The position numbers were made by a program, and so were the translations under genes. A stretch of DNA of 64,000 nucleotides, taken from Thermotoga sp. SG1. GTDB lineage: Bacteria; Thermotogota; Thermotogae; Thermotogales; Thermotogaceae. The notes beneath the pieces are model-generated. The model was not told the DNA's origin, made no database searches, and saw only the letters and a program-made list of their open reading frames with translations. Within the stretch, counting starts at the first letter, position 1. Every line of letters starts with the position of its first letter. The stretch spans positions 1 to 64,000 of the forward strand of contig NZ_LNDD01000003.1 in NCBI RefSeq assembly GCF_002865985.1, given 5' to 3'. Below are positions 1,779 to 39,850 of this stretch, piece after piece.

Positions 1779-2594
1779 TCAGTACTTCAAACCACCTGTC
1801 ATTATTCCTCTCATGAAAAGTCTTTGGAAGAGGAGGAAGATAATCAAGGTTGGGATAATGGTCAAAGTAGAGAAGGCAAGGATGGTGTTCCATTCTGCTC
1901 CCCCATATTCTTCCTGTATCGTAGCAAGTGCCAGCTGTAAGGTGTACAAACTTCTTTTGTTAACAACTAGAAGTGGCAGAACAAAATCATTCCATCTCCA
2001 CGTGAAAGAGAAAATGGAAAGAGCAGCCACCAAAGGCTTTGAAAGTGGAAAGACGATCCTCCAGAAGATCTGCCACTCGTTAGCACCATCTATCTTTGCA
2101 CTTTCCAAAAGTTCGTCGGGTATGTCTTTCATATACTGGACAGCCATGAACATACCAGTTGGAGTGTAAACGGCAGGAATGATCAACCCCCAGAGACTGT
2201 TTATCAAACCCAAGCTCCTGATCACAACGAACAGAGGAACCATTATCACCTGAGCACTTACAAACATGGTCATTGTGAAGAGACGATTCACAGGTCTGTT
2301 ACCCCAGAAAGTTCCCTTTGCAAGGCCGTATCCGGTCATTACACACACGAGGACAGTAATAACTGTTGCTACAGTGGCAACAAACAGGGTATTTCTCAAA
2401 TACGTCAGGAGATCGTAATCTTCCACAACGTTAATGTAACCTTCGAGGGAAGGATTCTTAGGAAAAATGGTGGGTGGATAGTTATAAATCTCTCCCAACG
2501 GCTTGAAGGATGAAACAACAGCGTAGAATACTGGAAGCATGAATACTACTAGCATGAATACTATGAAAATCCATTTTATAATACTTGCAATCAT
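1779..2594 (-). CDS. Sugar ABC transporter permease, MalG/AraQ type
   Basis: Inner-membrane permease of a carbohydrate uptake-1 type importer, 271 residues with about six membrane segments. The coupling loop that contacts the ATPase is visible near residue 170 as ESAKIDGANEWQIFWRIVFP. It lies 19 bases after the partner permease and carries the C-terminal GGLKY end common in MalG-type subunits. No ATPase gene is in the window, so a shared ATPase encoded elsewhere is likely. Linkage to pelA and a shared operator suggest oligogalacturonide import, an inference. Confidence 0.93.
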   Translation of the reverse strand: MIASIIKWIFIVFMLVVFMLPVFYAVVSSFKPLGEIYNYPPTIFPKNPSLEGYINVVEDYDLLTYLRNTLFVATVATVITVLVCVMTGYGLAKGTFWGNRPVNRLFTMTMFVSAQVIMVPLFVVIRSLGLINSLWGLIIPAVYTPTGMFMAVQYMKDIPDELLESAKIDGANEWQIFWRIVFPLSKPLVAALSIFSFTWRWNDFVLPLLVVNKRSLYTLQLALATIQEEYGGAEWNTILAFSTLTIIPTLIIFLLFQRLFMRGIMTGGLKY

Positions 2595-2613
2595 CTTCGT
2601 CCCTCCTGATTGA

Positions 2614-3474
2614 TTATGATCTTGATTCTCTAAATTTGAGGGTTATCATCGCTACAGCGAACGCAATGAAGAAATACACTATGGAAGCAGCATAAGAATA
2701 CCCTATCCTGAATTGCGTAAATGCAGTCTGATATATGTAAAGGGGTATTATGGTTGTGGCGTATCCGGGCCCTCCTGTGGTGAGTACATACACCCCCGCA
2801 AAACTTCTGAGTGTATGAGCAATTGCTGTCATGAGGACTAAAAGATTTGTATTGCTCATGGTAGGAAATACTACGTACCAGAATCTCTGCCATCTGTTTG
2901 CACCGTCTATCATAGCGGCTTCAATATAATCTTGGGGAACGTTTTGAAGGCCAGTGATGAACATAACCATCAAGAGTCCTGTCATACCCCAGGTTCGCAG
3001 CAAAGCAATTGAAAACAGAGCAGGGAAAGGTTTTATCAACCAAGGCACGGGCGAAAGACCTATTGTTCTCAGAATATGATTCAGCAATCCTATGTCGTAG
3101 GATAAAAGCCACTTCCACATGGTTGTTCCAGCTACAGCGGGCATCATGTATGGCCAATAGAAGAAGGCACGGAGTATTTTTGAAGAAGTATTTTCTTTGT
3201 ACAAGCACAGAGCAAGAGCAAGTGATACGAAGAATTGCATAGGAATTGCGAGGAGAAGAAGTTTTATAGAAACCCATACAGAATTCCAGAACCACTTGTC
3301 ACGAAGAAGCATTTTGAAATTTTCCAGTCCAACAAATCTGGGAGGGCTCAAAAGATTCCATTTGAAAAAGCCCATCACAAAAACACTGGCAACAGGTATA
3401 GCGACAAATATTATAAGAAATATCAATCCTGGCAACACGAACACAAATCTTGTTCTAACAAGACTTCGAAGCAT
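2614..3474 (-). CDS. Sugar ABC transporter permease, MalF/UgpA type
   Basis: Partner permease of 286 residues with six predicted membrane segments. An N-terminal segment is followed by the extracytoplasmic stretch, and the EAA coupling loop EAAMIDGANRWQRFWYVVFP lies near residue 187. It follows the binding-protein gene after a 77-base gap that holds a GC hairpin and precedes the MalG-type permease. Three genes in this order form a typical sugar importer lacking its ATPase. Substrate is inferred from context only. Confidence 0.93.
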   Translation of the reverse strand: MLRSLVRTRFVFVLPGLIFLIIFVAIPVASVFVMGFFKWNLLSPPRFVGLENFKMLLRDKWFWNSVWVSIKLLLLAIPMQFFVSLALALCLYKENTSSKILRAFFYWPYMMPAVAGTTMWKWLLSYDIGLLNHILRTIGLSPVPWLIKPFPALFSIALLRTWGMTGLLMVMFITGLQNVPQDYIEAAMIDGANRWQRFWYVVFPTMSNTNLLVLMTAIAHTLRSFAGVYVLTTGGPGYATTIIPLYIYQTAFTQFRIGYSYAASIVYFFIAFAVAMITLKFRESRS

Positions 3475-3523
3475 CTATACTCCTCCTTCAGTTTCTCATT
3501 TCGCTTTCTTTTTTTTAATTGAT

Positions 3524-3542
3524 GCGGGGGATGCCCCCCCGC
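3524..3542. repeat. GC hairpin between binding protein and permease genes
   Basis: Seven-base stem GCGGGGG/CCCCCGC in the 77-base gap after the binding-protein gene. On the transcribed (minus) strand no U-run follows, so it is not a standard terminator. It more likely stabilises the 3' end of the binding-protein mRNA and so keeps that protein in excess over the permeases. Confidence 0.6.
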
Positions 3543-3551
3543 TATGAAGTT

Positions 3552-4835
3552 TTACTTTTTAATACCCAGCTCTTCGATTATTCTTTCGTATTCTGCTCTA
3601 ATGTTCTTCAGAGCTGTCTGAAGATCCTGCTGACCAGCTATTACCAGGGATATCTGTTTCCTCAGAGGATCATAGATCTTGCTCCAAACAGGATTAGCCC
3701 TGACTGTTACGATCCACTCAGGAGCGTTTGCAGCTAGGTATCCAAATACTTTCTGGACATGGTCCATTATTGGTATACCGTAGTCTACTTTGTGACCTTT
3801 GTAAGCGGAGAGATGTAAAGTTGTCTTCAGATAGATGTCGTATCCTTCACCCTTCCAGCCAGCCCAGAGAGCGAATTTTGCTGCTTCTTCTTCCTTCTTC
3901 TTATCTCCTGTCTTGAAGACACCGAAGAATCTTCCACCCTCAACTCCGAAACAATACTCATCCTTTGGAAGGTACGCAGGTTCGAATCTTTTGCCTCCAC
4001 TCTCCGCAGCTTCAAGCGCATCAGCTGTCTCCCAGCTACCAGCCCAGTAAACAGCCGTGACCCCTCCGTAGAAATCGTTGTCAGCTGATTGACCACTGAT
4101 CCATTCAGCGGGTACAAAAAGGTTTTCTTTGAAGAGATTTACAAAATCTTCGAGGGCTTTGATAGCTTTGGGATCCTTGTCGAGAACAAGATTCAAATCC
4201 TCATCCAGAACCTTAGCACCTCTTATTGCCAGGTAGTTGGCTATTCTTTCTGCTGAGTACTGAATGGACATAGCGTAAGGCAGGTTGTTCGCTTCTTTCA
4301 CCTTCCTCAGAACATCAACGAATTCTTCCCATGTCCATGGTTCTTTTCTACCGCCGAACGGTGGAAATGGTATTCCTGCTTTTTCGAAGTAGTCAACGTT
4401 TACCCAAAGCCCCTGTACTGTGAAATGTAGAGGAACGTACTTGATTTTACCGTTTTCATCTTTGATGTAAGGCTTCACAACATCGTAGAGGGCATCTTCG
4501 AACTCTTTTGGTGTGATACCAAGATACTTCTCAATGTAGGGATCCAGATCGATGAGGTACTTTCTGAGATCAGGTGCAAATGGATAGGTGATGGTCATCA
4601 GGTCAGGTACATCACCACTCATGACAGCGAGTGATATCTTTTGCATGTAAGCTGAGTAAGAGATATCGATGAGTTCAAAATCAACATCGGGATTCAGTTT
4701 TTTGTACTCGGCGATAAGTGCTTCTAACCCTTTTCTTTCTGTTCCTCCACCACAATAGATTGTGAGTTTCACAGCACTGACCAGTGCAGGTACTAAGAGA
4801 AGAGCGATCAGGAAAACAACTGCAAACTTCCGCAT
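3552..4835 (-). CDS. Extracellular sugar-binding protein, family 1
   Basis: Periplasmic solute-binding protein of 427 residues that delivers a sugar to the two permeases downstream. A signal peptide (Lys/Arg start, hydrophobic core, cleavage near VSA) precedes the family 1 fold, which opens with a beta strand and the GGGTERKGLEALIAEYKKLN helix. The start ATG has the ribosome site AGGAGGGGAGAG. It is divergent from pelA across a 244-base region with a promoter and operator on each side. An oligogalacturonide ligand is inferred from this pairing; the sequence alone does not give the ligand. Confidence 0.93.
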   Translation of the reverse strand: MRKFAVVFLIALLLVPALVSAVKLTIYCGGGTERKGLEALIAEYKKLNPDVDFELIDISYSAYMQKISLAVMSGDVPDLMTITYPFAPDLRKYLIDLDPYIEKYLGITPKEFEDALYDVVKPYIKDENGKIKYVPLHFTVQGLWVNVDYFEKAGIPFPPFGGRKEPWTWEEFVDVLRKVKEANNLPYAMSIQYSAERIANYLAIRGAKVLDEDLNLVLDKDPKAIKALEDFVNLFKENLFVPAEWISGQSADNDFYGGVTAVYWAGSWETADALEAAESGGKRFEPAYLPKDEYCFGVEGGRFFGVFKTGDKKKEEEAAKFALWAGWKGEGYDIYLKTTLHLSAYKGHKVDYGIPIMDHVQKVFGYLAANAPEWIVTVRANPVWSKIYDPLRKQISLVIAGQQDLQTALKNIRAEYERIIEELGIKK

Positions 4836-5040: not shown

Positions 5041-5060
5041 ATATTTGAAACATCAAATAT
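5041..5060. promoter_or_regulatory. Perfect inverted-repeat operator before pelA
   Basis: ATATTTGA-AACA-TCAAATAT: two perfect 8-base arms with a 4-base spacer, typical of a dimeric winged-helix regulator. Related sites occur at 4864-4883 and 7631-7650. The GntR/FCD regulator encoded at 11532 is the natural candidate. Confidence 0.75.
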
Positions 5061-5079
5061 CTAAAGAGGAGGGATGTCC

Positions 5080-6177
5080 ATGAGGATCGTTCGGTTTGTT
5101 TCACTGGTGATGCTTCTTGTTGCTGCGGTAGCACTTTTTGGATCTGTAAAAGCTTCTCTCAGTGACAAACCGGTGGGATTTGCATCTGTTCCGACACCAG
5201 ATTTGCCGGAGGGTACCACGGGAGGATTTGGTGGCGAGATCGTTTTTGTTAAAACGGCGGAAGAACTTGAGAAATACGCAACATCAGAAGGAAAATATGT
5301 CATAGTCATTGATGGAGCGATCGTTTTTGAACCAAAGAGGGAGATCAAAGTTCTTTCAGATAAGACAATCGTTGGTATAAACGACGCAAAAATAATAGGA
5401 GGAGGGCTGGTTATAAAAAATGCACATAATGTAATCATAAGAAACATTCATTTCGAAGGATTTTACATGGAAGACGATCCACGGGGTAAAAAGTACGATT
5501 TTGATTACATCAACGTAGAAAATTCTCATCACGTCTGGATCGATCACTGTACTTTTGTGAATGGAAACGATGGAGCCATAGATATCAAGAAGTTTTCAAA
5601 TTACATAACAGTTTCCTGGAACAAATTCGTGGATCACGACAAGGTATCACTCGTTGGCTCTTCCGACAAGGAAGACCCAGAACAGGCCGGTCAGGCCTAT
5701 AAGGTCACCTATCACCACAACTACTTCAAAAACTGCATTCAGAGAATGCCGAGAATCAGATTTGGAATGGCGCACGTGTTCAACAACTTCTACAGTATGG
5801 GATTGAGAACGGGTGTTTCTGGAAACGTCTTTCCCATTTACGGCGTGGCTTCAGCAATGGGAGCGAAGGTTCATGTTGAAGGAAACTACTTCATGGGATA
5901 TGGTGCTGTCATGGCAGAAGCCGGTATTGCGTTCCTTCCCACCAGAATCATGGGGCCTGTGGAAGGTTATCTGACACTGGGTGAGGGCGACGCGAAGAAT
6001 GAATATTATTACTGCAAAGAACCTGAAGTCCGCCCAGTTGAGGAAGGGAAGCCTGCTTTTGATCCGCACGAATACTACGATTACACACTTGATCCGGTCA
6101 GTGAAGTTCCAAAGATAGTAGTGGAAGGATCAGGAGCAGGGAAACTGGTGTTTGAAGATCTCATGTCTTCTAAATGA
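5080..6177 (+). CDS. pelA: Secreted pectate lyase, polysaccharide lyase family 1
   Basis: Cleaves polygalacturonate by beta-elimination outside the cytoplasm and feeds oligogalacturonides to the importer. The protein has an N-terminal hydrophobic signal peptide and a parallel beta-helix. Family motifs are visible: VWIDHCTF, the Ca-binding DGAIDIKK stretch, VSWNKFVDHDKVSLVG, and QRMPRIRFGMAHVFNN with the catalytic arginine. The ATG at 5080 (365 residues) is preferred over the one at 5074 because GAGGAGG (5066-5072) is one base from 5074 but seven from 5080. It closely resembles my recollection of T. maritima PelA. Confidence 0.96.
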   Translation: MRIVRFVSLVMLLVAAVALFGSVKASLSDKPVGFASVPTPDLPEGTTGGFGGEIVFVKTAEELEKYATSEGKYVIVIDGAIVFEPKREIKVLSDKTIVGINDAKIIGGGLVIKNAHNVIIRNIHFEGFYMEDDPRGKKYDFDYINVENSHHVWIDHCTFVNGNDGAIDIKKFSNYITVSWNKFVDHDKVSLVGSSDKEDPEQAGQAYKVTYHHNYFKNCIQRMPRIRFGMAHVFNNFYSMGLRTGVSGNVFPIYGVASAMGAKVHVEGNYFMGYGAVMAEAGIAFLPTRIMGPVEGYLTLGEGDAKNEYYYCKEPEVRPVEEGKPAFDPHEYYDYTLDPVSEVPKIVVEGSGAGKLVFEDLMSSK

Positions 6178-6233: not shown

Positions 6234-7617
6234 ATGAAACGGTTCGTGTTCGTCTTTGTTGCACTTCTTGTTCTTCAAATTCTTGTGATGGGTTTTGGTC
6301 TCAAGGAGATCAAACCGGGGGAATATTACAACCTTTCCGACTATGAACGTCTGACAGGGAAGAGGATCACGAAGTTCAACGAGGCTCCCATGTTGAAAGA
6401 GATGGTCGAGAAGGGATTGTTACCACCTGTTGAAGAAAGACTTCCGAAAAACCCCCTTGTTGTGACTCCCGTAAAAGAGATCGGACAGTACGGTGGCACA
6501 TGGAGGAGAGCCTGGTACGGTTTTTCTGACAAATGGGGACCAAACAAGATCTGCTTTGAGTATCCAATATTCAGAAGTAATGCATGGAAGTGAACTTGTG
6601 CCGAATGTCTTTGAAAGTATGATAGTGTCACCAGATGGAAGGTCCTTTACTTTCAAAATTAGAGAAGGGTTGAAGTGGTCTGATGGAGTTCCTGTCACAA
6701 CAGAAGATGTCAGATTCTGGTACGAAGACATACTTTTGAACGAGGAAATAACACCATCTATATCTGCCGATTTGAGATCTGGGGGAGAGGTTTTCAAACT
6801 GGAGATAGTGGACGACTATACTTTCAGAATGATCTTCAAAGAACCAAATATGGTACTGCCCTGGAGGATAACTAAATCCTGGGTGGCCGGAACGAGTTTC
6901 GTCGTTCCTTCTCACTATATCAAGCAGTTTCATCCAAAGTATGTAGGAAAAGAAAAGGCCCAGCAGATAGCAAAAGAAAACGGTTTTGATAACTGGTGGC
7001 AGTTTGTTCAGGCAAGATGTCTGAACAGTGATTCTTGGTTGAGGAACCCTGATCTTCCGGTTCTTTTCCCATGGAAGCTGTCCAGAAGAACCACAGACAC
7101 TATGCTAGTTCTTGAGAGAAATCCGTACTACTTCAAAATCGATCCAGAAGGTAATCAGCTCCCCTACATCGATGAAATAGTTCACTACCTCGTTCAGAAC
7201 TCTCAAATGCTTGTCTTCAAAGCGATAACCGGAGAGGTAGATATGCAGGGCAGGAATCTATCTGTAGCGGATCTTCAACTGTTGCTAGCTAATCAGGAAA
7301 AAGGAGGATACAGAGTCATTTTCGAAAAACAAGGTATAGGAAGTGATGTCACTCTCTGGTTCAACCAGAATTACGAAGAGGATGAAATACTTGCGTCTAT
7401 TCTCAGGGACGTGCGATTCAGGCAGGCTATTTCTCTTGCGATCAACAGGGAAGAAATATGGCAGCTTGTGTACCACGGACTTGGAGAACCGCGTCAGGCA
7501 TCTCTAATCAAAGGAGTGAAATACTACGATCCTGAATGGGAAAAAGCATTCGCAGAGTACGACCCTGAAAGAGCCAATAAACTCCTCGATGAATTAGAGA
7601 AAAAATTAGAAATATGA
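6234..7617 (+). pseudogene. Family 5 ABC substrate-binding protein, frameshifted and truncated
   Basis: Remnant of an oligopeptide/oligosaccharide-type binding protein. From the ATG at 6234 (ribosome site GGGAGG) a signal peptide and the conserved GQYGGTWRRAWYG entry are read, then a stop at 6591-6593. The family sequence resumes in the next frame as GSELVPNVFES and FTFKIREGLKWSDGVPVTTE, and runs to a stop at 7615-7617. The shift maps near 6577-6585 (about one base gained or two lost). The family is usually near 600 residues; here about 460 remain and the C-terminal lobe is missing. No dedicated permeases adjoin. Both lesions argue for true decay over a read error, though the shift alone could be an error. 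Confidence 0.85.
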
Positions 7618-7624
7618 ATTATGG

Positions 7625-7650
7625 TAAACTATACCTGAAACATCAAACAT
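7625..7650 (+). promoter_or_regulatory. Promoter -10 and operator of the sugar-acid operon
   Basis: An extended -10 box, TGG-TAAACT (7625-7630), is followed at once by ATACCTGAAACATCAAACAT (7631-7650), 17 of 20 identical to the pelA operator. No good -35 box is seen. The geometry (operator abutting the -10 box) matches the transporter promoter at 4884. Confidence 0.6.
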
Positions 7651-7668
7651 CTTAGGGGAGTGATGAAT

Positions 7669-8766
7669 TTGAAGGCACACGCCATGGTGCTGGAACGTTT
7701 CAACCATCCCCTTGTTTACAGAGAATTCGAGATAACTGAGATTCCACCTGGATCTGTCTTCGTTGAAATCCTCTCTGCCGGTGTATGTGGCTCGGATGTT
7801 CACATGTTCCACGGAGAAGATCCCAGAATTCCCCTTCCTATCATACTGGGACACGAAGGTGCAGGAAGAGTTGTTGAGGTGAACGGTGAAAAGAAAGACC
7901 TCAACGGAGAGTCGATAAAACCTGGTGATCTGATCGTATGGAACAGAGGAATCACCTGTGGAGAGTGTTTCTGGTGTAAAGTGTCAAAAGAGCCCTACCT
8001 GTGTCCAAACAGGAAGGTTTACGGAATAAACATGGGAAGCTCTGAGTATCCTCACCTCAGAGGGTGTTACAGCTCTCACATAGTACTCGATCCAAAGACG
8101 GATATTTTGAAGGTATCAGAAAAAGATGACCTCGATGTTTTAGCTATGGCTATGTGTTCTGGTGCAACAGCGTACCATGCTTTCGATGAATATCCAGAAA
8201 ACTTTGCTGGGAAGACAGTGGTGATACAGGGTGCAGGACCTCTAGGATTGTTCGCCGTTGTCATAGCACGATCTTTTGGGGCAGAGAAAGTGGTGGTGAT
8301 CGCCGGATCGCCGAACAGATTGAGAATTGCAGAAGAGATCGGAGCAGACATCACGCTGAACAGAAGAGAAACAACTGTTGAAGAGAGAAGAAAAATCGTC
8401 ATGGACATCACACATGGAAGAGGAGCAGATTTTGTTCTGGAGGCAACAGGAGACAGCAGAGCCCTTTTGGAAGGAGCGGAACTTTTGAGAAGAGGGGGAT
8501 ACTACGCCGTGGCAGGTGTTGCCGTTCCGCAGGATCCTGTGCCACTGAAGGTTTACGAATGGCTTGTTTTAAAAAATGCAACGTTCAAGGGTGTGTGGGT
8601 GAGTGACACATCTCACTTTATGAAGACAGTATCGATCGCTTCCAGAAACTACAACCTTCTTTCTAAGCTCATCACTCACAAACTTCCTCTGAAAGAGGCA
8701 AACAGAGCATTGGAACTCATGGAATCGAGGGAAGCATTGAAGGTAATACTCTATCCGGAGGGATGA
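7669..8766 (+). CDS. Zinc-dependent medium-chain alcohol/polyol dehydrogenase
   Basis: NAD(P)-dependent oxidoreductase of 365 residues. The catalytic-zinc Cys lies in VCGSDVHMF and the GHEGAGRV helix follows. A structural-zinc lobe has clustered cysteines (TCGECFWCKVSKEPYLC), and the Rossmann motif is GAGPLGLFAVVIA. I choose the TTG at 7669 because GGGGAG (7655-7660) is 8 bases from it but only 2 from the ATG at 7663. It is the first gene of the operon and overlaps the next by ATGA if that gene's first ATG is used. It may interconvert a sugar acid and a keto-sugar acid, or an alditol; substrate unknown. Confidence 0.9.
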   Translation: MKAHAMVLERFNHPLVYREFEITEIPPGSVFVEILSAGVCGSDVHMFHGEDPRIPLPIILGHEGAGRVVEVNGEKKDLNGESIKPGDLIVWNRGITCGECFWCKVSKEPYLCPNRKVYGINMGSSEYPHLRGCYSSHIVLDPKTDILKVSEKDDLDVLAMAMCSGATAYHAFDEYPENFAGKTVVIQGAGPLGLFAVVIARSFGAEKVVVIAGSPNRLRIAEEIGADITLNRRETTVEERRKIVMDITHGRGADFVLEATGDSRALLEGAELLRRGGYYAVAGVAVPQDPVPLKVYEWLVLKNATFKGVWVSDTSHFMKTVSIASRNYNLLSKLITHKLPLKEANRALELMESREALKVILYPEG

Positions 8767-8768
8767 GA

Positions 8769-10109
8769 ATGCTGGAGAAGGCAAAAAGAGTTGAAGAAGA
8801 AATTTTGAATCACGTGAAGGAACCAGAAATTCCAGACCGAGTGGTTGAAATCACCGAGTTTGGAGCAATCGGTGACGGAAAGGCCGACTGTACTGAGAGT
8901 TTCAGAAAAGCCATAGAATTCCTCTCAGAACAGGGTGGAGGAAGACTCGTGGTTCCCCACGGGGTGTTTCTGACAGGGCCCATTCACCTGAAAAGCAACA
9001 TAGAGCTTCATGTTCTGGGGACGATAAAGTTCATCTCGGATCCGAAAAGATATCTTCCCGTTGTTCTGACACGGTTTGAAGGGATAGAATTGTACAACTA
9101 CTCTCCATTGATTTACGCTCTGGACTGTGAAAACGTTGCGATCACCGGAAGTGGTGTGCTGGATGGTTCTGCAGACAACGAACACTGGTGGCCATGGAAG
9201 GGAAAAAAAGAATTTGGCTGGAAGGAAGGAACTCCCAGTCAAAATGAAGATGTGAAAAAGTTGAAAGAGATGGCAGAAAAAGGAACTCCCGTTGAAGAGA
9301 GGATCTTTGGTGAAGGACATTACCTGAGACCGAGTTTCATCCAGTTTTACAGGTGCAGAAACGTTCTGATGAAGGGTGTAAAAGTCGTCAACTCTCCTAT
9401 GTGGTGTGTACATCCGGTTCTTTCTGAGAATGTGATCATCAGAGGCATAGAGATTTCGAGCACGGGCCCGAACAACGATGGGATCGATCCCGAATCCTGT
9501 AGGTACGTGCTCATAGAGAACTGCAGATTCGATACGGGAGACGACTCTGTGGTCATCAAGTCCGGAAGAGATGCGGATGGAAGGCGTATAAACGTCCCAT
9601 CAGAGTATATCCTTGTTCGAAACAACATCGTACTGAGTCAGGCAAGTCATGGAGGTCTGGTCATAGGAAGCGAGATGTCCGGTGGAGTGAAAAACGTGGT
9701 GGCAAGAAACAACGTTTACATGAACGTGGAAAGAGCACTCAGATTGAAAACAAACTCCAGACGTGGTGGATACATGGAAAACATCTTTTTTGTTGATAAC
9801 GTGGTGATAGACGTTTCAGAGGAAGTGATCAGGATAAACCTCAGGTACGACAACGAAGAGGGTGAGTATCCCCCTGTTGTCAGGAACGTTTTTGTGAAGA
9901 ATTTAAAAGCGACCGGTGGAAAGTACGCGATTCGTGTGGAAGGACTGGAGAACGACTTTGTAAAAGACGTTATGATATCTGATACTATAATAGAGGGAGC
10001 AAAGATTTCTGTTCTTCTGGAATTCGGGCAGATAGGCATGGAAAACGTAACCATAAACGGATCACGGTTCGAAAAACTCTATCTGGAAGGAAAGGCACTG
10101 TTGAAATGA
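8769..10109 (+). CDS. pelB: Exo-poly-alpha-D-galacturonosidase, glycoside hydrolase family 28
   Basis: Releases galacturonate from oligogalacturonides, probably in the cytoplasm since no signal peptide is present. GH28 catalytic blocks are clear: NNDGIDPES, DTGDDSVVIKSG, SHGGLVIGSE and the RLKTN substrate-binding motif, on a beta-helix. The ATG at 8769 (446 residues) is preferred over 8763 because GGAGG (8757-8761) is one base from 8763 and seven from 8769. Very similar to the characterised T. maritima exo-enzyme as I recall it. It turns imported oligomers into monomer for the downstream uronate genes. Confidence 0.95.
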   Translation: MLEKAKRVEEEILNHVKEPEIPDRVVEITEFGAIGDGKADCTESFRKAIEFLSEQGGGRLVVPHGVFLTGPIHLKSNIELHVLGTIKFISDPKRYLPVVLTRFEGIELYNYSPLIYALDCENVAITGSGVLDGSADNEHWWPWKGKKEFGWKEGTPSQNEDVKKLKEMAEKGTPVEERIFGEGHYLRPSFIQFYRCRNVLMKGVKVVNSPMWCVHPVLSENVIIRGIEISSTGPNNDGIDPESCRYVLIENCRFDTGDDSVVIKSGRDADGRRINVPSEYILVRNNIVLSQASHGGLVIGSEMSGGVKNVVARNNVYMNVERALRLKTNSRRGGYMENIFFVDNVVIDVSEEVIRINLRYDNEEGEYPPVVRNVFVKNLKATGGKYAIRVEGLENDFVKDVMISDTIIEGAKISVLLEFGQIGMENVTINGSRFEKLYLEGKALLK

Positions 10110-10125
10110 AATGGAGGTGGTACCT

Positions 10126-11535
10126 GTGAAATCCAGTATTGGCCTTATAGGTCTTGCAGTGATGGGACAGAATCTTGCCTTAAACATCGCAAGAAAAGGT
10201 TATAAAGTCTCTGTCTTCAACAGAACAGCCCAGAGAACAGAAGAGTTCGTGAAAAATCATGTGAAGGACGAAGAAATAGAGCCTCACTACGACATAAAAG
10301 AGTTTGTAGAATCCCTTGAGAGGCCAAGAAAGATCATTCTGATGGTGAAAGCAGGAAAACCCGTCGACGATACTATTTCCCAGCTTCTTTCTTATCTTGA
10401 ACCGGGAGATCTGATTGTAGATGGTGGGAATTCACATTATCTGGACACAGAAAGACGCTTTAAAGATCTCACAGAGAAAGGATTTCTTTTTCTTGGAATG
10501 GGTGTTTCGGGTGGTGAATATGGAGCCCTCCATGGGCCTTCTCTCATGCCTGGTGGAAGTAAAGAAGCGTACAGCCTGGTCGAAGATATTCTCCTGAAGA
10601 TCGCTGCAAAGACGGAAGATGGTCCCTGCTGCACCTACGTTGGGGAAAGATCCGCCGGGCACTTCGTGAAGATGGTTCACAACGGAATAGAATATGCCAT
10701 CATGCAGGCGATAGCAGAGATATATCACATCATGAGAGATGTCCTGAACCTTTCCGCCGATGAGATGGCCAGTATCTTCAAAGAGTGGAACTCTGGAGAA
10801 CTCAATTCCTTCCTTGTGGAGATCACCTACAAGATCCTGAAAAGAAAAGATGAAGAAACAGGAAAACCGATGGTCGATGTGATACTGGACAGGGCAGAAC
10901 AAAAGGGAACTGGAAAATGGACTTCTCAGGCAGCCCTGGATCTTGGAATTCCCACTCCCTCCATAAACATGGCGGTGGTTGAAAGGGTGATTTCCCACTT
11001 CAAAGAGGAAAGAACAAGACTTTCAAAACTGTATAATAAGAGAAGAAGAGTTCTTCAAAAAAGCAAGGAATTTCTGAAAGATCTCAGAGACTCTCTCTTT
11101 TTTGCCATGCTTACAGCCTTTTCTCAGGGTATGTGGTTGATCTCAGAAGCGTCAAAGGAGTTCAACTACAACGTGGACCTTTCTGAAGTACTCAGAATAT
11201 GGAAAGGAGGATGTATCATAAGAGCGAAGTTGATAGACACGCTGAGAAGGTACATATCGGACGAGAATGCATATTTGCTGGAAAACGAGGAAGTAATCTC
11301 TTTGTTGAAGGAACGAATAGATTCTCTGAAAAATGTCTTGAAGGTGTCCATAGAAAATGAAATTCCTGTTCCCGTTTTGAGTTCTGCTTACAGCTACTTC
11401 GTGAGTCTAACGGAGGAAAGGCTCCCAGCGAATCTCATTCAGGCTCAAAGGGATTTCTTCGGAGCACACACGTTTGAGAGAGTGGATAAAGATGGTGTGT
11501 TCCACATCAACTGGGAGGAAGGAGAGATAGAATGA
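10126..11535 (+). CDS. gnd: 6-phosphogluconate dehydrogenase, decarboxylating
   Basis: Oxidises 6-phosphogluconate to ribulose 5-phosphate and CO2 with NADP(H). It starts at GTG 10126 behind GGAGGTGG (10113-10120), giving the usual 469 residues. The Rossmann motif GLAVMGQNLALNIA is followed by the NADP-type NRT signature, LIVDGGNSHY, GVSGGEYGALHGPSLMPGG, the catalytic Lys/Asn segment GHFVKMVHNGIEY and the C-terminal QAQRDFFGAHTFER. It sits with gluconate kinase in one operon, so gluconate enters the pentose phosphate pathway directly. Confidence 0.97.
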   Translation: MKSSIGLIGLAVMGQNLALNIARKGYKVSVFNRTAQRTEEFVKNHVKDEEIEPHYDIKEFVESLERPRKIILMVKAGKPVDDTISQLLSYLEPGDLIVDGGNSHYLDTERRFKDLTEKGFLFLGMGVSGGEYGALHGPSLMPGGSKEAYSLVEDILLKIAAKTEDGPCCTYVGERSAGHFVKMVHNGIEYAIMQAIAEIYHIMRDVLNLSADEMASIFKEWNSGELNSFLVEITYKILKRKDEETGKPMVDVILDRAEQKGTGKWTSQAALDLGIPTPSINMAVVERVISHFKEERTRLSKLYNKRRRVLQKSKEFLKDLRDSLFFAMLTAFSQGMWLISEASKEFNYNVDLSEVLRIWKGGCIIRAKLIDTLRRYISDENAYLLENEEVISLLKERIDSLKNVLKVSIENEIPVPVLSSAYSYFVSLTEERLPANLIQAQRDFFGAHTFERVDKDGVFHINWEEGEIE

Positions 11536-12176
11536 AAAAGATCGAAGTAGACCTTGTGAGAACGAAGGTCTACAGTCTTCTCAAAGAGATGATACTGAAC
11601 CATGAGTTGAAACTCGGAGAAAAACTCAACGTGAGAGAACTCTCTGAGAAACTGGGAATCAGTTTCACACCGGTGAGGGATGCACTCCTTCAACTTGCAA
11701 CGGAAGGTCTTGTGAAGGTGGTGCCGAGGGTTGGTTTCTTTGTTACCGACGTTGACGAGAAATTCATAAGAGAGACGATAGAGACAAGGATCATGATGGA
11801 GGTTTTCTGTCTTGAGAACTACTTCGAAAGAATCGCTTCCTCTGAGGAACTCTTGAAGATAAAAGAAGAGATAGAAAACGTTGAAAGCAGTCTGAAAAGG
11901 GACCTGTTCGACGATTCCGATGAAAGACTTCACAAACTCTTCATTAAAGCCTCCGGGAACGATCTCATCATTTCTCTTTACGAAAAAATATGGGACCGCA
12001 TCGATCTAGTAAGACACCTGAACGAAAGGTACATCGTCTCAAATAGAGAACACAAAGAACTCATAGAGAGTATCCTGCGTGGTGACAAAGAAGAAGCAGT
12101 TGAGAAACTGAAGGAGCATCTGAGAAACGTGGAGGAGGAGACGATAAGAAATCTGTACACGTACGAGAAGGGGTGA
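11532..12176 (+). CDS. GntR-family regulator with FCD ligand domain (UxaR-type)
   Basis: Local transcription regulator of 214 residues, probably a repressor released by a uronate or sugar-acid intermediate. The N-terminal winged helix (residues about 8-75) contains LNVRELSEKLGISFTPVRDA. The C-terminal all-helical FCD domain keeps its metal-site pattern of Asp and His residues (DDSDERLH, VRHL, REHKEL, KEHLRN). It overlaps gnd by ATGA and lies inside the operon it likely controls. The inverted-repeat sites at 4864, 5041 and 7631 are its probable targets (inference). Confidence 0.92.
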   Translation: MKKIEVDLVRTKVYSLLKEMILNHELKLGEKLNVRELSEKLGISFTPVRDALLQLATEGLVKVVPRVGFFVTDVDEKFIRETIETRIMMEVFCLENYFERIASSEELLKIKEEIENVESSLKRDLFDDSDERLHKLFIKASGNDLIISLYEKIWDRIDLVRHLNERYIVSNREHKELIESILRGDKEEAVEKLKEHLRNVEEETIRNLYTYEKG

Positions 12177-12180
12177 GGGT

Positions 12181-13629
12181 ATGTCTTTGAAGGTGTTCAA
12201 AGATCATTTTGGAAGAGGATATGAAGTTTACGAAGGTTCTTATAGAGAAAAAGAAGGATTCTCCTTCTTTCTGGTAAAAGGAGAAGAAGGGAAAGTATTG
12301 GTAATCTCAGGTGAAAAGGTACCGGAAGGTGCTTCGTTCTTCAAAAAGCATCATGTGGATGAAAAGACGTTTTTCTTCTGTGAGAAGAGCCACGAAAATC
12401 TGGAGATCCTGAGAAAACACTTTCCCGATCTGAAACCCACCCGAGCAGGATTGAGGGCGTCCTTTGGAACCGGTGACAGGCTCGGAATCACTACACCTGC
12501 CCATGTGAGGGCACTGAGAGGTTCTGGTCTGTTTCCTGTTTTTGCCCAGCAGTCTGTGAGAGAAAATGAAAGAACAGGAAGAACCTGGAGAGATGTACTC
12601 GATGACGCAACCTGGGGAGTGTTCCAGGAGGGGTACACAGAAGGATTTGGAGCGGATGCAGACCATGTGAAAAATCCTGAAGATCTTGTCGCAGCAGCAA
12701 AAGAAGGCTTTTCCATGTTCACGATCGATCCTTCGGATCACGTGAGGAACCTTTCAAAACTCAGTGAAAGAGAAAAGAACGAGATGTTCGAGGAAATACT
12801 GAAAAAAGAGCGCATAGACAGGATTTACCTTGGGAAGAGGTACACCATCCTTGGTGAAAGACTGGAGTTCGACGAGAAAAGTCTGAGGGATGCTGCCCTG
12901 GTGTACTACGATGCGATCACCCACGTGGATATGATGTATCAAATTTTGAAAGAGGAGATCTCGGACTTCGATTTTGAGGTTTCCGTTGACGAGACAGAAA
13001 CACCTACCAGTCCGCTGTTTCACATATTCGTTGTGGAAGAACTCAGAAGACGGGGTGTGGAATTCACCAACCTCGCTTTGAGGTTCATCGGTGAGTGGGA
13101 AAAAGGTATCGATTACAAAGGAGATCTCGGCTTGTTCGAGAAGGAAATCAAAATGCACGCTGAAATTTCGAGGATGTTCGAGGGCTACAAGTTGTCTTTA
13201 CACTCCGGAAGCGACAAGTTCTCCGTGTATCCAGCCTTCTCTTCTGCGACGGACGGTCTTTTCCATGTGAAGACGGCGGGAACGAGCTATCTTGAGGCGA
13301 TAAAGGTGATCTCGATGGTCAGCCCTGCTCTCTTTCGTGAAATCTACAGATGTGCCCTCGAGCACTTTGAAGAGGACAGAAAGTCCTATCACATATCCGC
13401 CGATCTTTCAAAAGTTCCGGATGTGGAGAAGGTGGAGGATGAAGACCTGCCAGCGCTTTTTGAGGACACCAACGTGAGACAGCTGATTCACGTCACCTAC
13501 GGTTCTGTCCTCAAAGATAAATCCCTGAAGGAAAGGATATTCGAAGCCCTCGATCGAAACGAAAAACTCTTCTACGAAACGGTAGAAAGTCACATAAAAA
13601 GGCACGTGGATCTTTTGAGGGGTGATTGA
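12181..13629 (+). CDS. uxaE: Tagaturonate-fructuronate epimerase
   Basis: Converts D-tagaturonate to D-fructuronate, joining galacturonate and glucuronate catabolism. The 482-residue protein matches the UxaE family described in Thermotoga, by recollection of sequence and of the same gene order. Polar conserved blocks include GADADHVKNPEDL, DETETPTSP, FIGEWEKGIDYKGD and LSLHSGSDKFSVYP, which probably supply metal and substrate ligands. The ATG has a GGGGTGAGGG ribosome site 4 bases after the regulator stop. No uronate isomerase (UxaC) lies in the window. Confidence 0.88.
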   Translation: MSLKVFKDHFGRGYEVYEGSYREKEGFSFFLVKGEEGKVLVISGEKVPEGASFFKKHHVDEKTFFFCEKSHENLEILRKHFPDLKPTRAGLRASFGTGDRLGITTPAHVRALRGSGLFPVFAQQSVRENERTGRTWRDVLDDATWGVFQEGYTEGFGADADHVKNPEDLVAAAKEGFSMFTIDPSDHVRNLSKLSEREKNEMFEEILKKERIDRIYLGKRYTILGERLEFDEKSLRDAALVYYDAITHVDMMYQILKEEISDFDFEVSVDETETPTSPLFHIFVVEELRRRGVEFTNLALRFIGEWEKGIDYKGDLGLFEKEIKMHAEISRMFEGYKLSLHSGSDKFSVYPAFSSATDGLFHVKTAGTSYLEAIKVISMVSPALFREIYRCALEHFEEDRKSYHISADLSKVPDVEKVEDEDLPALFEDTNVRQLIHVTYGSVLKDKSLKERIFEALDRNEKLFYETVESHIKRHVDLLRGD

Positions 13630-13630
13630 G

Positions 13631-14389
13631 GTGTTCGATCTCAAGGGAAGGGTTGCCCTTGTGACTGGCGGTTCTCGGGGTCTTGGATTTGGTATCGCTC
13701 AGGGACTGGCAGAGGCCGGTTGCTCGGTGATCGTTGCAAGCAGAAACTTTTCAGAAGCCTCAGAAGCAGCACAGAGACTGAAGAGGGATTACGAAGTAGA
13801 GGCGATGCCCCTCCGGTGCGACGTGTCAAATTACGAAGAAGTGAAAAACCTGATGAATACCATTGAAAAAGAGTTAGGAAAACTCGATGTGGTGGTCAAC
13901 GCGGCGGGAATAAACAGAAGACACCCGGCGGAGGAGTTTCCCATAGATGAGTTCAGACAGGTGATAGAGGTGAACCTTTTTGGAACCTATTATGTGTGCA
14001 GAGAGGCCTTTCGGCTCCTCAGAAAATCCGATAATCCTTCGATCATAAACATTGGATCCCTCACCGTTGAAGAGGTCACAATGCCAAACATCGCTGCGTA
14101 CGCTGCATCGAAGGGAGGAGTCGCCTCTCTAACGAAGGCCCTGGCGAAAGAGTGGGGAAAGTACGGTATCCGGGTGAACGCCATCGCCCCTGGCTGGTAC
14201 AGAACAAAGATGACAGAGGCGGTCTTCAGCGATCCCGAGAAACTGGACTACATGCTGAGGAGAATTCCTCTCGGCAGAACGGGTGTTCCGGAGGATCTGA
14301 AAGGAGTGGCCGTTTTTCTTGCTTCCGAAGAGGCGCGGTATGTGACGGGACAGATCATCTTCGTGGACGGTGGATGGACCGCAAATTGA
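13631..14389 (+). CDS. Short-chain dehydrogenase/reductase, gluconate 5-dehydrogenase-like
   Basis: Cytoplasmic NAD(P)-dependent oxidoreductase of 252 residues. Family marks: TGGSRGLGFGIA cofactor loop, NAAG, catalytic Ser in NIGSLT, YAASK, and a VTGQIIFVDGG end. I use the GTG at 13631 because GAGGGGTGAT (13617-13626) spaces correctly; the GTG at 13622 is inside that site. Closest in feel to gluconate 5-dehydrogenase or 2-deoxygluconate 3-dehydrogenase. Between uxaE and a sugar-acid epimerase, reduction of fructuronate to mannonate is plausible, but the substrate cannot be read from sequence. Confidence 0.9.
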   Translation: MFDLKGRVALVTGGSRGLGFGIAQGLAEAGCSVIVASRNFSEASEAAQRLKRDYEVEAMPLRCDVSNYEEVKNLMNTIEKELGKLDVVVNAAGINRRHPAEEFPIDEFRQVIEVNLFGTYYVCREAFRLLRKSDNPSIINIGSLTVEEVTMPNIAAYAASKGGVASLTKALAKEWGKYGIRVNAIAPGWYRTKMTEAVFSDPEKLDYMLRRIPLGRTGVPEDLKGVAVFLASEEARYVTGQIIFVDGGWTAN

Positions 14390-14401: not shown

Positions 14402-15685
14402 ATGACGGTGTATCTGGAAGGAAATCCACTGACCGAGGAAAAGATAAAGGAAGGCCTTGCAAAACTTGTGAGCGACCTTGGAAGGGCGAAAAAGGCCCTG
14501 GTTGTTCACACGGATTATACCCGTGTGGATTTCACCCATCTGATCGCAAAAAATCTCTACAGGTTCCTCCTGGAGAAGGGTTTAGAAGAATTCCATACGC
14601 TCAACGCGAGTGGTACGCACAGGGCGATGAAGGTGGAAGAGTTTGAAAAGAAACTGGGTATCTCAAGAGACGAAAAAGGAGTGTTTTTCCACAACCACGA
14701 GTTCTTCAATCCAGAAGCCCTGGCGTTTGTTGGAACGCTTCCTTCCGATTTTGTCTCCGAGATGACAGAAGGGGATCTGGAAGAGGAGATACCGATAAAA
14801 GTGAACAGAATGCTCTTTGAGGATTTCGATGCGATCTTTTTCATAAACGGCACCGTCCCTCACGAATCAACGGGATTTTCGGGAGGGTTGAAGATCGTCA
14901 TTCCTGGTGTTGCCAGTACGGAGGTGGTGGATACCTTCCACTGGGCGGCGGTACTCATGGGTATTCCAAAGCTCATAGGTACGGTGGATAACCCCGCGCG
15001 GAAGATCATAAACAGGGCGTCGGAGATGATCTTCCAGAAGATCAAAGCAAGATCCTTCACCCTGAACATGGTGTACGAGGAAGAAGAAGAGGTGATTCCA
15101 AGAGCGCTCTACATAGACGAGGGATTCGAGGGTTTTCTGAGGGCGTACGAGAAAGCGTGTGAACTCAGCGCTCAACTCCACGTGAAATACATAGACAGGC
15201 CCCTCAAAAGAGCCGTTCAGGTTATAGGAGAAGAATACGACGAGGTCTGGACCGCCGGAAAGGGTTCTTATAAACTCCAAAGGCCCGGTGTGATGGCAAA
15301 GGGAGGCCAGATAATCATTTACGCACCTCATATAAAGAGATTTCACTCCAATCCTCAGATGGACAGATGGATCAGGGAGATAGGATATCACTGCAAAGAC
15401 TACGTGAAGTGGTATCTGAAAAAGCATCCTGACTTCAACAAAAACGTTGCAGCTCACGTGATCAACGTGAGGGGAGCAGGAACGTTCGATCCAGAAACAG
15501 GAAAGGAGGAGTTCGAGTTCGATGTGATTCTGGCTACCTCCATTCCCGAAGATGCATGCAAGGCGGTGAACCTGGGCTACATGGACCCCTTGAAGATAAG
15601 GAAAGAAGATTTCATGAACGAGGATTCCCTCTGGATAGTTCCCGGTGGAAAATATCTCTACGATCTGAGGGAGAGGAGAAGATGA
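14402..15685 (+). CDS. LarA-family nickel-pincer racemase/epimerase, probable sugar-acid 2-epimerase
   Basis: A 427-residue lactate racemase homologue. The nickel-pincer nucleotide ligands are present with lactate-racemase spacing: Lys164 (SGGLK, the thioamide attachment residue) lies 10 residues after His154 and 16 before His180. A candidate second acid/base His99 is in NHE, and DYTR and SGTHR match N-terminal family motifs. The family epimerises the alpha carbon of 2-hydroxy acids, and a gluconate 2-epimerase subgroup has been reported. Position next to uxaE, gluconate kinase and gnd points to mannonate/gluconate interconversion (inference). It overlaps gntK by ATGA. The cofactor genes larB, larC and larE are not in the window. 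Confidence 0.85.
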   Translation: MTVYLEGNPLTEEKIKEGLAKLVSDLGRAKKALVVHTDYTRVDFTHLIAKNLYRFLLEKGLEEFHTLNASGTHRAMKVEEFEKKLGISRDEKGVFFHNHEFFNPEALAFVGTLPSDFVSEMTEGDLEEEIPIKVNRMLFEDFDAIFFINGTVPHESTGFSGGLKIVIPGVASTEVVDTFHWAAVLMGIPKLIGTVDNPARKIINRASEMIFQKIKARSFTLNMVYEEEEEVIPRALYIDEGFEGFLRAYEKACELSAQLHVKYIDRPLKRAVQVIGEEYDEVWTAGKGSYKLQRPGVMAKGGQIIIYAPHIKRFHSNPQMDRWIREIGYHCKDYVKWYLKKHPDFNKNVAAHVINVRGAGTFDPETGKEEFEFDVILATSIPEDACKAVNLGYMDPLKIRKEDFMNEDSLWIVPGGKYLYDLRERRR

Positions 15686-17112
15686 TAGCGGCCATAGACA
15701 TTGGAACAGAGAGCGCTCGTTTGATGTTCAAAACTGACGGTGAGTGGAAAGTCCTGAAAAAGTCCTACAGGATCTTTTTCCCATCTCTCGAAGCGGTGGA
15801 GCAGGATCCAGAGGAAATCTTGGCAGCCGTCTATGACCTTTTGAAGCAGATTCCAAAAAAGGAAGATGTTCTGTACGTTGGAATGAGTTCTGTGTTTCAC
15901 AGTATAGTGGGTCTCGATGAAGATTTCAACCCGGTAACGCCCCTTCTCAACTGGGCGGATAGGAGGTCCTATCACGAAAAGGAAGAACTCGAAAAGAAAT
16001 ACGGGACCAGGTTCTTCTACGAAAGAACGGCCTGCCCGCTTCATCCGATGTACTGGCCTTCGAAGATCCTATGGATGAAGAAGAACTCAGATTCAAAGAA
16101 GTTCTGTTCCATAAAGGCCTTCATAGTCAACAAACTGACGGGAGAGTTCGTGGAGGAGCTTTCCCTTGCTTCCGGAACTGGAATGATAAACATCCACTCC
16201 CTCGAGTGGGACGACGAAATCCTTGAGATCGTGGGGGTGAAGAAAGAAAACCTGCCAGAACTCATGTCACCCTACACTCAGTTGAAAGCGAAAGAAGATG
16301 TAGCGAAAGAACTCGGTTTCAAGGAAGTCTATCTGGTCCTCGGTGGAGGAGACGGAGTAATGACGAACGTTGGACTGAACGCTATGAGTCCAGATTCTGC
16401 CACCGTAACGATCGGAACAAGCGGTGCGTTTCGTGTGGTTCTGAACAGATCCGTGATAGATCGGGAAGGCATCTCCACGTGGTGCTATCTGATCGATGAG
16501 AAAAACTATGTTCTTGGTGGTGCGATAAACAACGGCGGAATCGTGCTGATGTGGCTGAAAGATGTTATGAAGTTCGACAGTTACGACGAGATCATAGAGG
16601 AGGCAAAGAAGTCTTCGATCGGGGCAAGCGGTCTTGTTTTCCTTCCCTTCCTCAACGGTGAAAGGGCACCACACTGGAGAGAAAGGTACAGGGGTGTTCT
16701 GGTGGGACTTGCTTCATCTCACAGAAGAAGCGATATCGCCAGGGCGGCGCTTGAGGGGATCTGTTTCAGAATAAAAGACATATACAACGCGGTGAAGAGG
16801 GTGGGGAATGTGGATCCTGTTCGGATCGTTGCAACGGGAGGCTTCACCAGTTCGCCTTACTGGGTTCAGCTCCTTGCGGATGTTCTGGGAAAGGATATCG
16901 CGGTCACAAACGTGGAGAATCCTTCCGCCTTCGGTGCCTATGTAATGGCGCTGAAGTCTCTTGGAGAGAGCGTAGAAGAATTCCTTGAAAAGGAAGTACG
17001 TGTGGAGCAGGTTTTTCGCTGTGATCCCGAAAGAAACGAAAAATACGAAAAACTCTACGATGATTACAGACTTCTCTACGAAAAACTTGTGGACTATTTC
17101 TACAGGGAGTAA
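15682..17112 (+). CDS. gntK: FGGY-family gluconate kinase
   Basis: Phosphorylates gluconate with ATP to 6-phosphogluconate, the substrate of Gnd in the same operon. It has 476 residues in the two-domain FGGY fold: phosphate loop IDIGTESARL, second-domain TIGTSGAF, LNGERAPHW and VATGGFTSSPYWVQLLADV. The ATG at 15682 lies within ATGA with the preceding stop and has a GGAGAGGAG ribosome site. It is the last gene of the operon; its end overlaps the convergent aspartase gene by 13 bases, with no terminator between. Other sugar-acid or sugar substrates cannot be excluded by sequence. Confidence 0.9.
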   Translation: MIAAIDIGTESARLMFKTDGEWKVLKKSYRIFFPSLEAVEQDPEEILAAVYDLLKQIPKKEDVLYVGMSSVFHSIVGLDEDFNPVTPLLNWADRRSYHEKEELEKKYGTRFFYERTACPLHPMYWPSKILWMKKNSDSKKFCSIKAFIVNKLTGEFVEELSLASGTGMINIHSLEWDDEILEIVGVKKENLPELMSPYTQLKAKEDVAKELGFKEVYLVLGGGDGVMTNVGLNAMSPDSATVTIGTSGAFRVVLNRSVIDREGISTWCYLIDEKNYVLGGAINNGGIVLMWLKDVMKFDSYDEIIEEAKKSSIGASGLVFLPFLNGERAPHWRERYRGVLVGLASSHRRSDIARAALEGICFRIKDIYNAVKRVGNVDPVRIVATGGFTSSPYWVQLLADVLGKDIAVTNVENPSAFGAYVMALKSLGESVEEFLEKEVRVEQVFRCDPERNEKYEKLYDDYRLLYEKLVDYFYRE

Positions 17113-32826: not shown

Positions 32827-37899
<5,073 letters not shown>

Positions 37900-37905
37900 A
37901 AAAAG

Positions 37906-37933
37906 AAGGGGCTCCGAACGGAGCCCCTTTTTA
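37906..37933. terminator. Bidirectional terminator between rpoC and the orphan binding protein
   Basis: AAGGGGCTCC/GGAGCCCCTT stem with loop GAAC. T-runs flank both sides (TTTTTATTTATT on plus; CTTTTTTTTATG on minus), so it can end both convergent transcripts. Confidence 0.93.
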
Positions 37934-37934
37934 T

Positions 37935-39779: not shown

Positions 39780-39825
39780 ACACGAACCCCCTTTCCTAAA
39801 ATGTGGTTATCCTTACTATATTTGA

Positions 39826-39831
39826 ATTATA
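39826..39831 (-). promoter_or_regulatory. -10 box of the orphan binding-protein promoter
   Basis: TATAAT on the minus strand, preceded by an extended TATGC context. The -35 region 17 bases upstream (GTGAAC) is weak and lies inside the dnaE end. The 5' leader would be about 40 bases with the ribosome site AGGAAAGGGGG. Confidence 0.65.
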
Positions 39832-39850
39832 GCATACTAAAAGGGTGTGT

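Follow-up and report, generated by a model that had tools for sequence, protein, structure and literature searches.

A gene of the Thermotoga pectin operon that probably encodes a nickel-pincer-dependent hexonate 2-epimerase, and LarA homologues without LarB, LarC and LarE in Thermotogota

What does a homologue of lactate racemase (LarA) do among genes for sugar acids? The question is raised by an open reading frame of 427 codons, whose boundaries lie at exactly 14402-15685 on the forward strand of the window, the stretch of 64,000 nucleotides from Thermotoga sp. SG1 analysed here. Judged from its sequence relatives and neighbours, the gene is very probably gntE, and its 427-residue product would be a hexonate 2-epimerase that depends on the nickel-pincer cofactor (NPN) and interconverts D-mannonate and D-gluconate in pectin catabolism. 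Such an enzyme is an ordinary member of an already characterised kind, and the nickel-pincer finding has been known since 2020; the reliance of the Thermotoga pectin operon on a nickel organometallic cofactor, published in that year, is confirmed here by an independent search. The lead worth passing on, rather than gntE itself, is a mismatch between LarA homologues and the LarB, LarC and LarE proteins in the Thermotogota.

The comparison with gluconate 2-epimerases that the preliminary description had proposed gives a direct answer as to identity. The gntE product is identical over its full length to GntE2/LarAH20 of T. maritima (PDB 4NAR, UniProt Q9WYS3) at 397 of 426 residues (93%; phmmer E = 1.1e-279), and the phmmer match to LarA of Thermoanaerobacterium has E = 3.9e-10. 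According to the accessible text of PMC7583248, the purified T. maritima enzyme is a D-gluconate 2-epimerase with none of six other tested activities; it requires NPN, converts D-mannonate to D-gluconate and does not racemise lactate. With D-mannonate its KM is 17 mM, its kcat of 197 per s is the highest among the seven homologues in that report, and its optimum is 80-90 C. The orthology to an assayed enzyme is thus seen in identity, E-value and shared neighbours. The 4NAR chain is still labelled 'Putative uronate isomerase' despite this assay.

Membership in the LarA superfamily is indicated by Pfam Lar_N (67.7 bits, cut-off 23.3), of which gntE is the only match in the SG1 genome, and by a profile built with 12 GntE relatives, for which all 10 PDB chains listed are LarA-family chains. 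The whole-protein LarA fold, the set of NPN-binding and catalytic residues and the larB, larC and larE genes are all found. Among NCBIfam models the best is LarAH18, 'putative hexonate epimerase' (NF052594); its 193.4 bits fall below the cut-off of 500, and an identity as LarAH18 was rejected. The model for lactate racemase sensu stricto (NF033504) reaches 62.0 bits, below its cut-off of 460. A model for LarA homologue group 20 is not listed in NCBIfam as searched.

The active-site residues can be placed by a phmmer alignment to holo-LarA of Lactiplantibacillus plantarum (5huq), counting along the row. His154, Lys164 and His180, which had been equated with LarA His174, Lys184 and His200, pair with exactly these residues; Lys164 falls on the cofactor lysine and not elsewhere. 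On the forward strand, with roles from PMC7583248, the codons are those of H154 (14861-14863; LarA H174, acid/base), K164 (14891-14893; LarA K184, NPN-binding lysine) and H180 (14939-14941; LarA H200, nickel ligand). The DYTR motif, residues 38-41 (14513-14524), supplies D38 and R41, the equivalents of LarA D72 and R75, and SGTHR, residues 70-74, contains H73 (14618-14620; LarA H108, acid/base). The catalytic lysine is probably K287 (15260-15262; LarA K298), a pairing drawn from the correspondence of G286 to LarA V297 in PMC7583248. The same report names R41, K164 and H180 as the NPN residues of 4NAR and E155, S156, G286 and N348 as residues of its substrate region, and the gntE product is identical to 4NAR at every one of them. 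R41, K164, H180, D38, H73, H154 and K287 are invariant in 12 of 12 GntE relatives, as is H99, which lies outside the residue set assigned to catalysis or NPN binding in the accessible text of PMC7583248. H73 and H154, rather than H99, form the acid/base pair. The preliminary description was therefore right that His99, DYTR and SGTHR are present, but the second catalytic histidine is the one within SGTHR. Its prediction of an active, nickel-dependent enzyme is supported by the complete NPN-binding and catalytic set, together with the NPN dependence of the 93%-identical orthologue.

The 10- and 16-residue spacing, to which the preliminary description drew attention, is real but weak when taken alone. 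The pattern H-x9-K-x15-H arises in 666 of 20,000 shuffles of the gntE product (3.3%) and occurs twice in the protein itself, as H154-K164-H180 and as H73-K83-H99, so that by itself it is weak evidence. The relationship to LarA rests on family-level homology, which is strong where the bare spacing is weak. The second copy of the pattern spans window positions 14618-14698, and the accessible parts of the literature consulted assign no role to K83 or H99.

The fold agrees with the alignment. An AlphaFold model of the gntE product has a mean pLDDT of 88.5 and is weak at the cofactor loop 156-162, where pLDDT is under 50. It superposes on 4NAR with Z 54.7 (rmsd 2.5, 419 residues aligned), and the modelling against a LarA structure that had been suggested earlier gives Z 27.8 to holo-LarA 5HUQ (rmsd 3.5, 377 aligned, with about 17% of the structurally matched residues identical), consistent with a predicted LarA fold. 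The best twelve rows of the structure search are all of the LarA family, including the single-histidine LarA-like proteins 9Q3K (Z 25.1) and 9Q3J (Z 22.2); the next row, unrelated, is at Z 7.0.

The neighbourhood agrees with this reading. By Pfam and NCBIfam the forward-strand genes are, in order, a pectate lyase (pelA, 5074-6177, PF00544), a family-5 binding protein, a Zn-type dehydrogenase (7660-8766, the first gene of the operon, at the 'aldH' position in PMC3750489), a GH28 exo-polygalacturonase (pelB, 8763-10109), an NADP-dependent 6-phosphogluconate dehydrogenase (gnd, 10111-11535; 673.8 bits, cut-off 413), a GntR/FCD regulator (uxaR, 11532-12176, named with PMC3750489), the tagaturonate epimerase UxaE (12181-13629; PF16257, 636.6 bits), an SDR-family oxidoreductase (uxaD, 13622-14389, named also by its position in the published operon), the LarA-type gntE and an FGGY gluconate kinase (gntK, 15682-17112), whose start overlaps the gntE stop as ATGA. 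The part that starts with the dehydrogenase at 7660 and ends with the kinase has the gene order of the UxaR-regulated T. maritima operon aldH-pelB-gnd-uxaRED-gntEK, as given in the accessible text of PMC3750489. A sugar ABC transporter with two permeases and one binding protein (1779-4835, reverse strand) is divergent to pelA and the operon, where aguEFG would be expected; it has the position and type of aguEFG, a name taken from the same text. The family-5 solute-binding protein at 6493-7617 (forward strand) has only 374 residues, and its best PDB match spans residues 90-422 of 633; what lies between pelA and the operon here is thus, to judge by the sequence, probably the truncated leftover of a gene for a transporter.

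Regulation may be shared as well. T. maritima UxaR binds its operators, and the operon genes are mostly 2-5-fold up on pectin (PMC3750489, accessible text). Two candidate UxaR operators, 17-mers on the forward strand with one difference between them, lie upstream of the operon (7636-7652) and of pelA (5046-5062). A search with the operator pattern gives four matches, a test with some circularity, since two of the four had supplied the pattern; the other two have 3 mismatches each, one upstream of pelA and one within a gene elsewhere. Of the ten genes that begin with pelA and end with gntK, none is assigned to lactate by Pfam or NCBIfam. The earlier remark that nothing nearby concerns lactate thus holds for these ten genes, but it is expected rather than puzzling, because the enzyme is the orthologue of the published gluconate epimerase of the UxaR pectin operon.

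In the proposed pathway, galacturonate would be converted to tagaturonate, and UxaE would epimerise this to fructuronate. UxaD, by its place in the published gene order the putative fructuronate reductase, would then yield mannonate. GntE would turn mannonate into gluconate, GntK would phosphorylate this to 6-phosphogluconate, and Gnd would form ribulose 5-phosphate. By analogy with the LarA-type mechanism (PMC7583248, PMC11770544; accessible text), NPN bound by R41, K164 and H180 would accept a hydride from C2 as the hydroxyl proton goes to H73 or H154, and the transient 2-keto acid would be reduced from the opposite face by the returned hydride; for the gntE product this is suggested by the 93%-identical enzyme and the shared active site. 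K164 might in addition tether NPN covalently. The presumed source of the NPN is larC-larB-larE, which lie apart from gntE and are contiguous at about 37,500-40,240 of G000:C4 (G000 is Thermotoga sp. SG1). Their products are found once each, with 243.8 bits for LarB (cut-off 175), 208.7 for LarC (90) and 303.5 for LarE (150). Since there is a single Lar_N gene beside this larCBE set, the NPN pathway here would serve GntE alone among known LarA-type users.

Could the same enzyme and mechanism have another physiological substrate? Its main role might lie with some other C2-hexonate pair in hexuronate metabolism, mannonate/gluconate being a side reaction. This idea is favoured by the KM of 17 mM for D-mannonate, a value so high that a different hexonate might suit the enzyme better, and by the view of the authors of PMC7583248 that the sister group GntE1 has a different native substrate. 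Set against this are the kcat of 197 per s, the largest of the seven homologues, and the position of the gene. The gntE gene is translationally coupled to gntK and grouped with gnd, uxaE and uxaD; the gap among the steps of these genes is the one between mannonate and gluconate, and we regard another main substrate as improbable.

That a lactate racemase has been placed by chance in a sugar-acid operon is far less credible still. The Pfam name, 'Lactate racemase N-terminal domain', and the pincer residues shared with LarA would fit such an enzyme, but the score with the lactate racemase model (62 bits) falls well short of its cut-off (460), the substrate loop reads E155-S156 and not F175-F176, the T. 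maritima orthologue lacks the activity (PMC7583248, accessible text), and there are zero lactate genes nearby. Almost no weight can be given either to a uronate isomerase that works without metal, although the PDB names the 4NAR molecule 'Putative uronate isomerase': sequence and fold are those of LarA, and the name is older than the assay, PMC7583248 describing 4NAR as solved with unknown function. The preferred reading remains the D-mannonate/D-gluconate 2-epimerase GntE.

The wider distribution of the family raises a second question, that of cofactor supply. Within the order, for which alone LarB and LarE were counted, 19 of 45 genomes have a LarA homologue. LarC, LarE (above cut-off) and LarB are confined to the same seven genomes of Thermotoga, the genus of gntE, LarB being above cut-off in six and in pieces in the seventh. 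The other 12 LarA-bearing genomes, eleven of family f2 and G035, lack LarB, LarC and LarE and have 1 to 4 LarA homologues each (loci L002-L011, L015, L020-L028 and L050-L054; genomes G001-G011 and G035). Their GntE orthologues are 57-60% identical to the gntE product in f2 and 86% in G035; a LarA homologue is present, and a GntE orthologue absent, in G001 and G002, which count among the eleven. As evidence against the preferred reading of gntE stands the 86%-identical homologue in a genome that has no larB, larC or larE, which puts the supply of NPN across the family in question. A second, full LarC model, run on 13 genomes at E up to 1 so as to catch divergent LarC, is above cut-off in G000 alone; it gives two matches below threshold, of 13.2 and 11.0 bits, which we attribute to chance. 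The same models match distant archaea among the control genomes, so mere divergence is unlikely to be the cause of the absence of LarC. Weak LarB hits elsewhere probably reflect PurE, and weak LarE hits other ATP-pyrophosphatases.

The pattern extends to the phylum. Among 103 genomes of Thermotogota, 51 have a LarA homologue above cut-off (53 at E up to 0.001), 15 have LarC and 12 have both, which leaves LarC missing from 39 of the 51. When the count is limited to genomes with a completeness of 90% or more and a contamination of 5% or less, LarA (E up to 0.001) is found in 42 and LarC in 11 of those, and several LarC-less, LarA-bearing genomes are single-contig. In Atribacterota, a LarC match is absent from five of ten GntE-bearing genomes (L071-L075, G054-G058), which are MAGs without completeness figures. 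Conversely, three Thermotogota genomes (G070, G071 and G075) have LarC and no Lar_N match; NPN may there be used by a protein of another kind than LarA, an idea put forward for cyanobacteria in PMC11796402.

The LarC-less proteins conserve the active site. D38, R41, H73, H154, K164 and H180 are kept in all of 50 aligned LarA homologues, picked from a subset of the matched loci (10 from 8 LarC-bearing and 40 from 27 LarC-less genomes); K287 is retained by all 10 of the former and by 35 of the 40 latter. Left out of this count were near-identical or repeated loci (L001, L016-L019, L029, L030, L043, L045, L046 and L048), the fragment L021, and L103, whose GGG in place of SGG caused the pattern to miss the frame and in which H, K and H are retained. 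A search for a recurrent larBCE substitute beside LarA homologues, over 16 stretches none longer than 19 kb, gave no gene resembling a cofactor enzyme. LarA itself is in 15 of them, the sixteenth being the larCBE stretch of Thermotoga sp. SG1; the most widespread neighbour is an ABC-ATPase-like protein (10 of 16), followed by the transporter components TctC and TctA, each in 7 stretches, and by components of altronate/galactarate dehydratase, in 6 and 5. These neighbourhoods, with malic enzyme, tricarboxylate transporters and altronate/galactarate dehydratases, suggest substrates and not cofactor genes. Six stretches, two from Thermotoga (L095 in G037, L096 in G040) and four from f2 (L084, L087, L091 and L094, in Pseudothermotoga-like genomes), contain a second LarA homologue, which the SG1 genome lacks, next to split altronate/galactarate dehydratase genes, a position that suggests an aldarate or altronate-type substrate; L013 (G041) is a homologue of the same kind.

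It is conceivable, and we put it forward tentatively, that LarA-type enzymes of Thermotogota, GntE included, obtain the nickel-pincer cofactor without LarB, LarC and LarE, which form the sole pathway known for it, through another biosynthesis or by uptake of the finished cofactor; a different cofactor in the same pocket of the LarC-less proteins is the other possibility. An earlier report of LarA without LarBCE was not found in the literature searched, an incomplete set, and may exist. If the proposal is true, Thermotoga with its larC-larB-larE would be the minority case in its phylum, and if the LarC-less enzymes are active, there would be a second route to a nickel-carbon cofactor, or a cofactor passed between organisms.

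Compared with known systems, the gntE product differs from the single-histidine LarA-like enzymes (9Q3K, 9Q3J), in which the H174 equivalent is Asn (PMC12611868, accessible text) whereas the gntE product has H154. LarAH18 is its best NCBIfam model, yet the score lies far below the cut-off. With L. plantarum LarA (5HUQ) it shares the fold and the equivalents of H174, K184, H200, R75, D72 and H108, but LarA has F175-F176 in the loop where the gntE product has E155-S156, and LarA is encoded in a lar operon, whereas gntE lies in a sugar-acid operon with larCBE unlinked. It differs from GntE2/LarAH20 (4NAR) by 29 substitutions, zero of them at the named residues, and by its origin in a different Thermotoga species; it matches that enzyme in full length, in all named active-site residues and their numbering, and in operon order.
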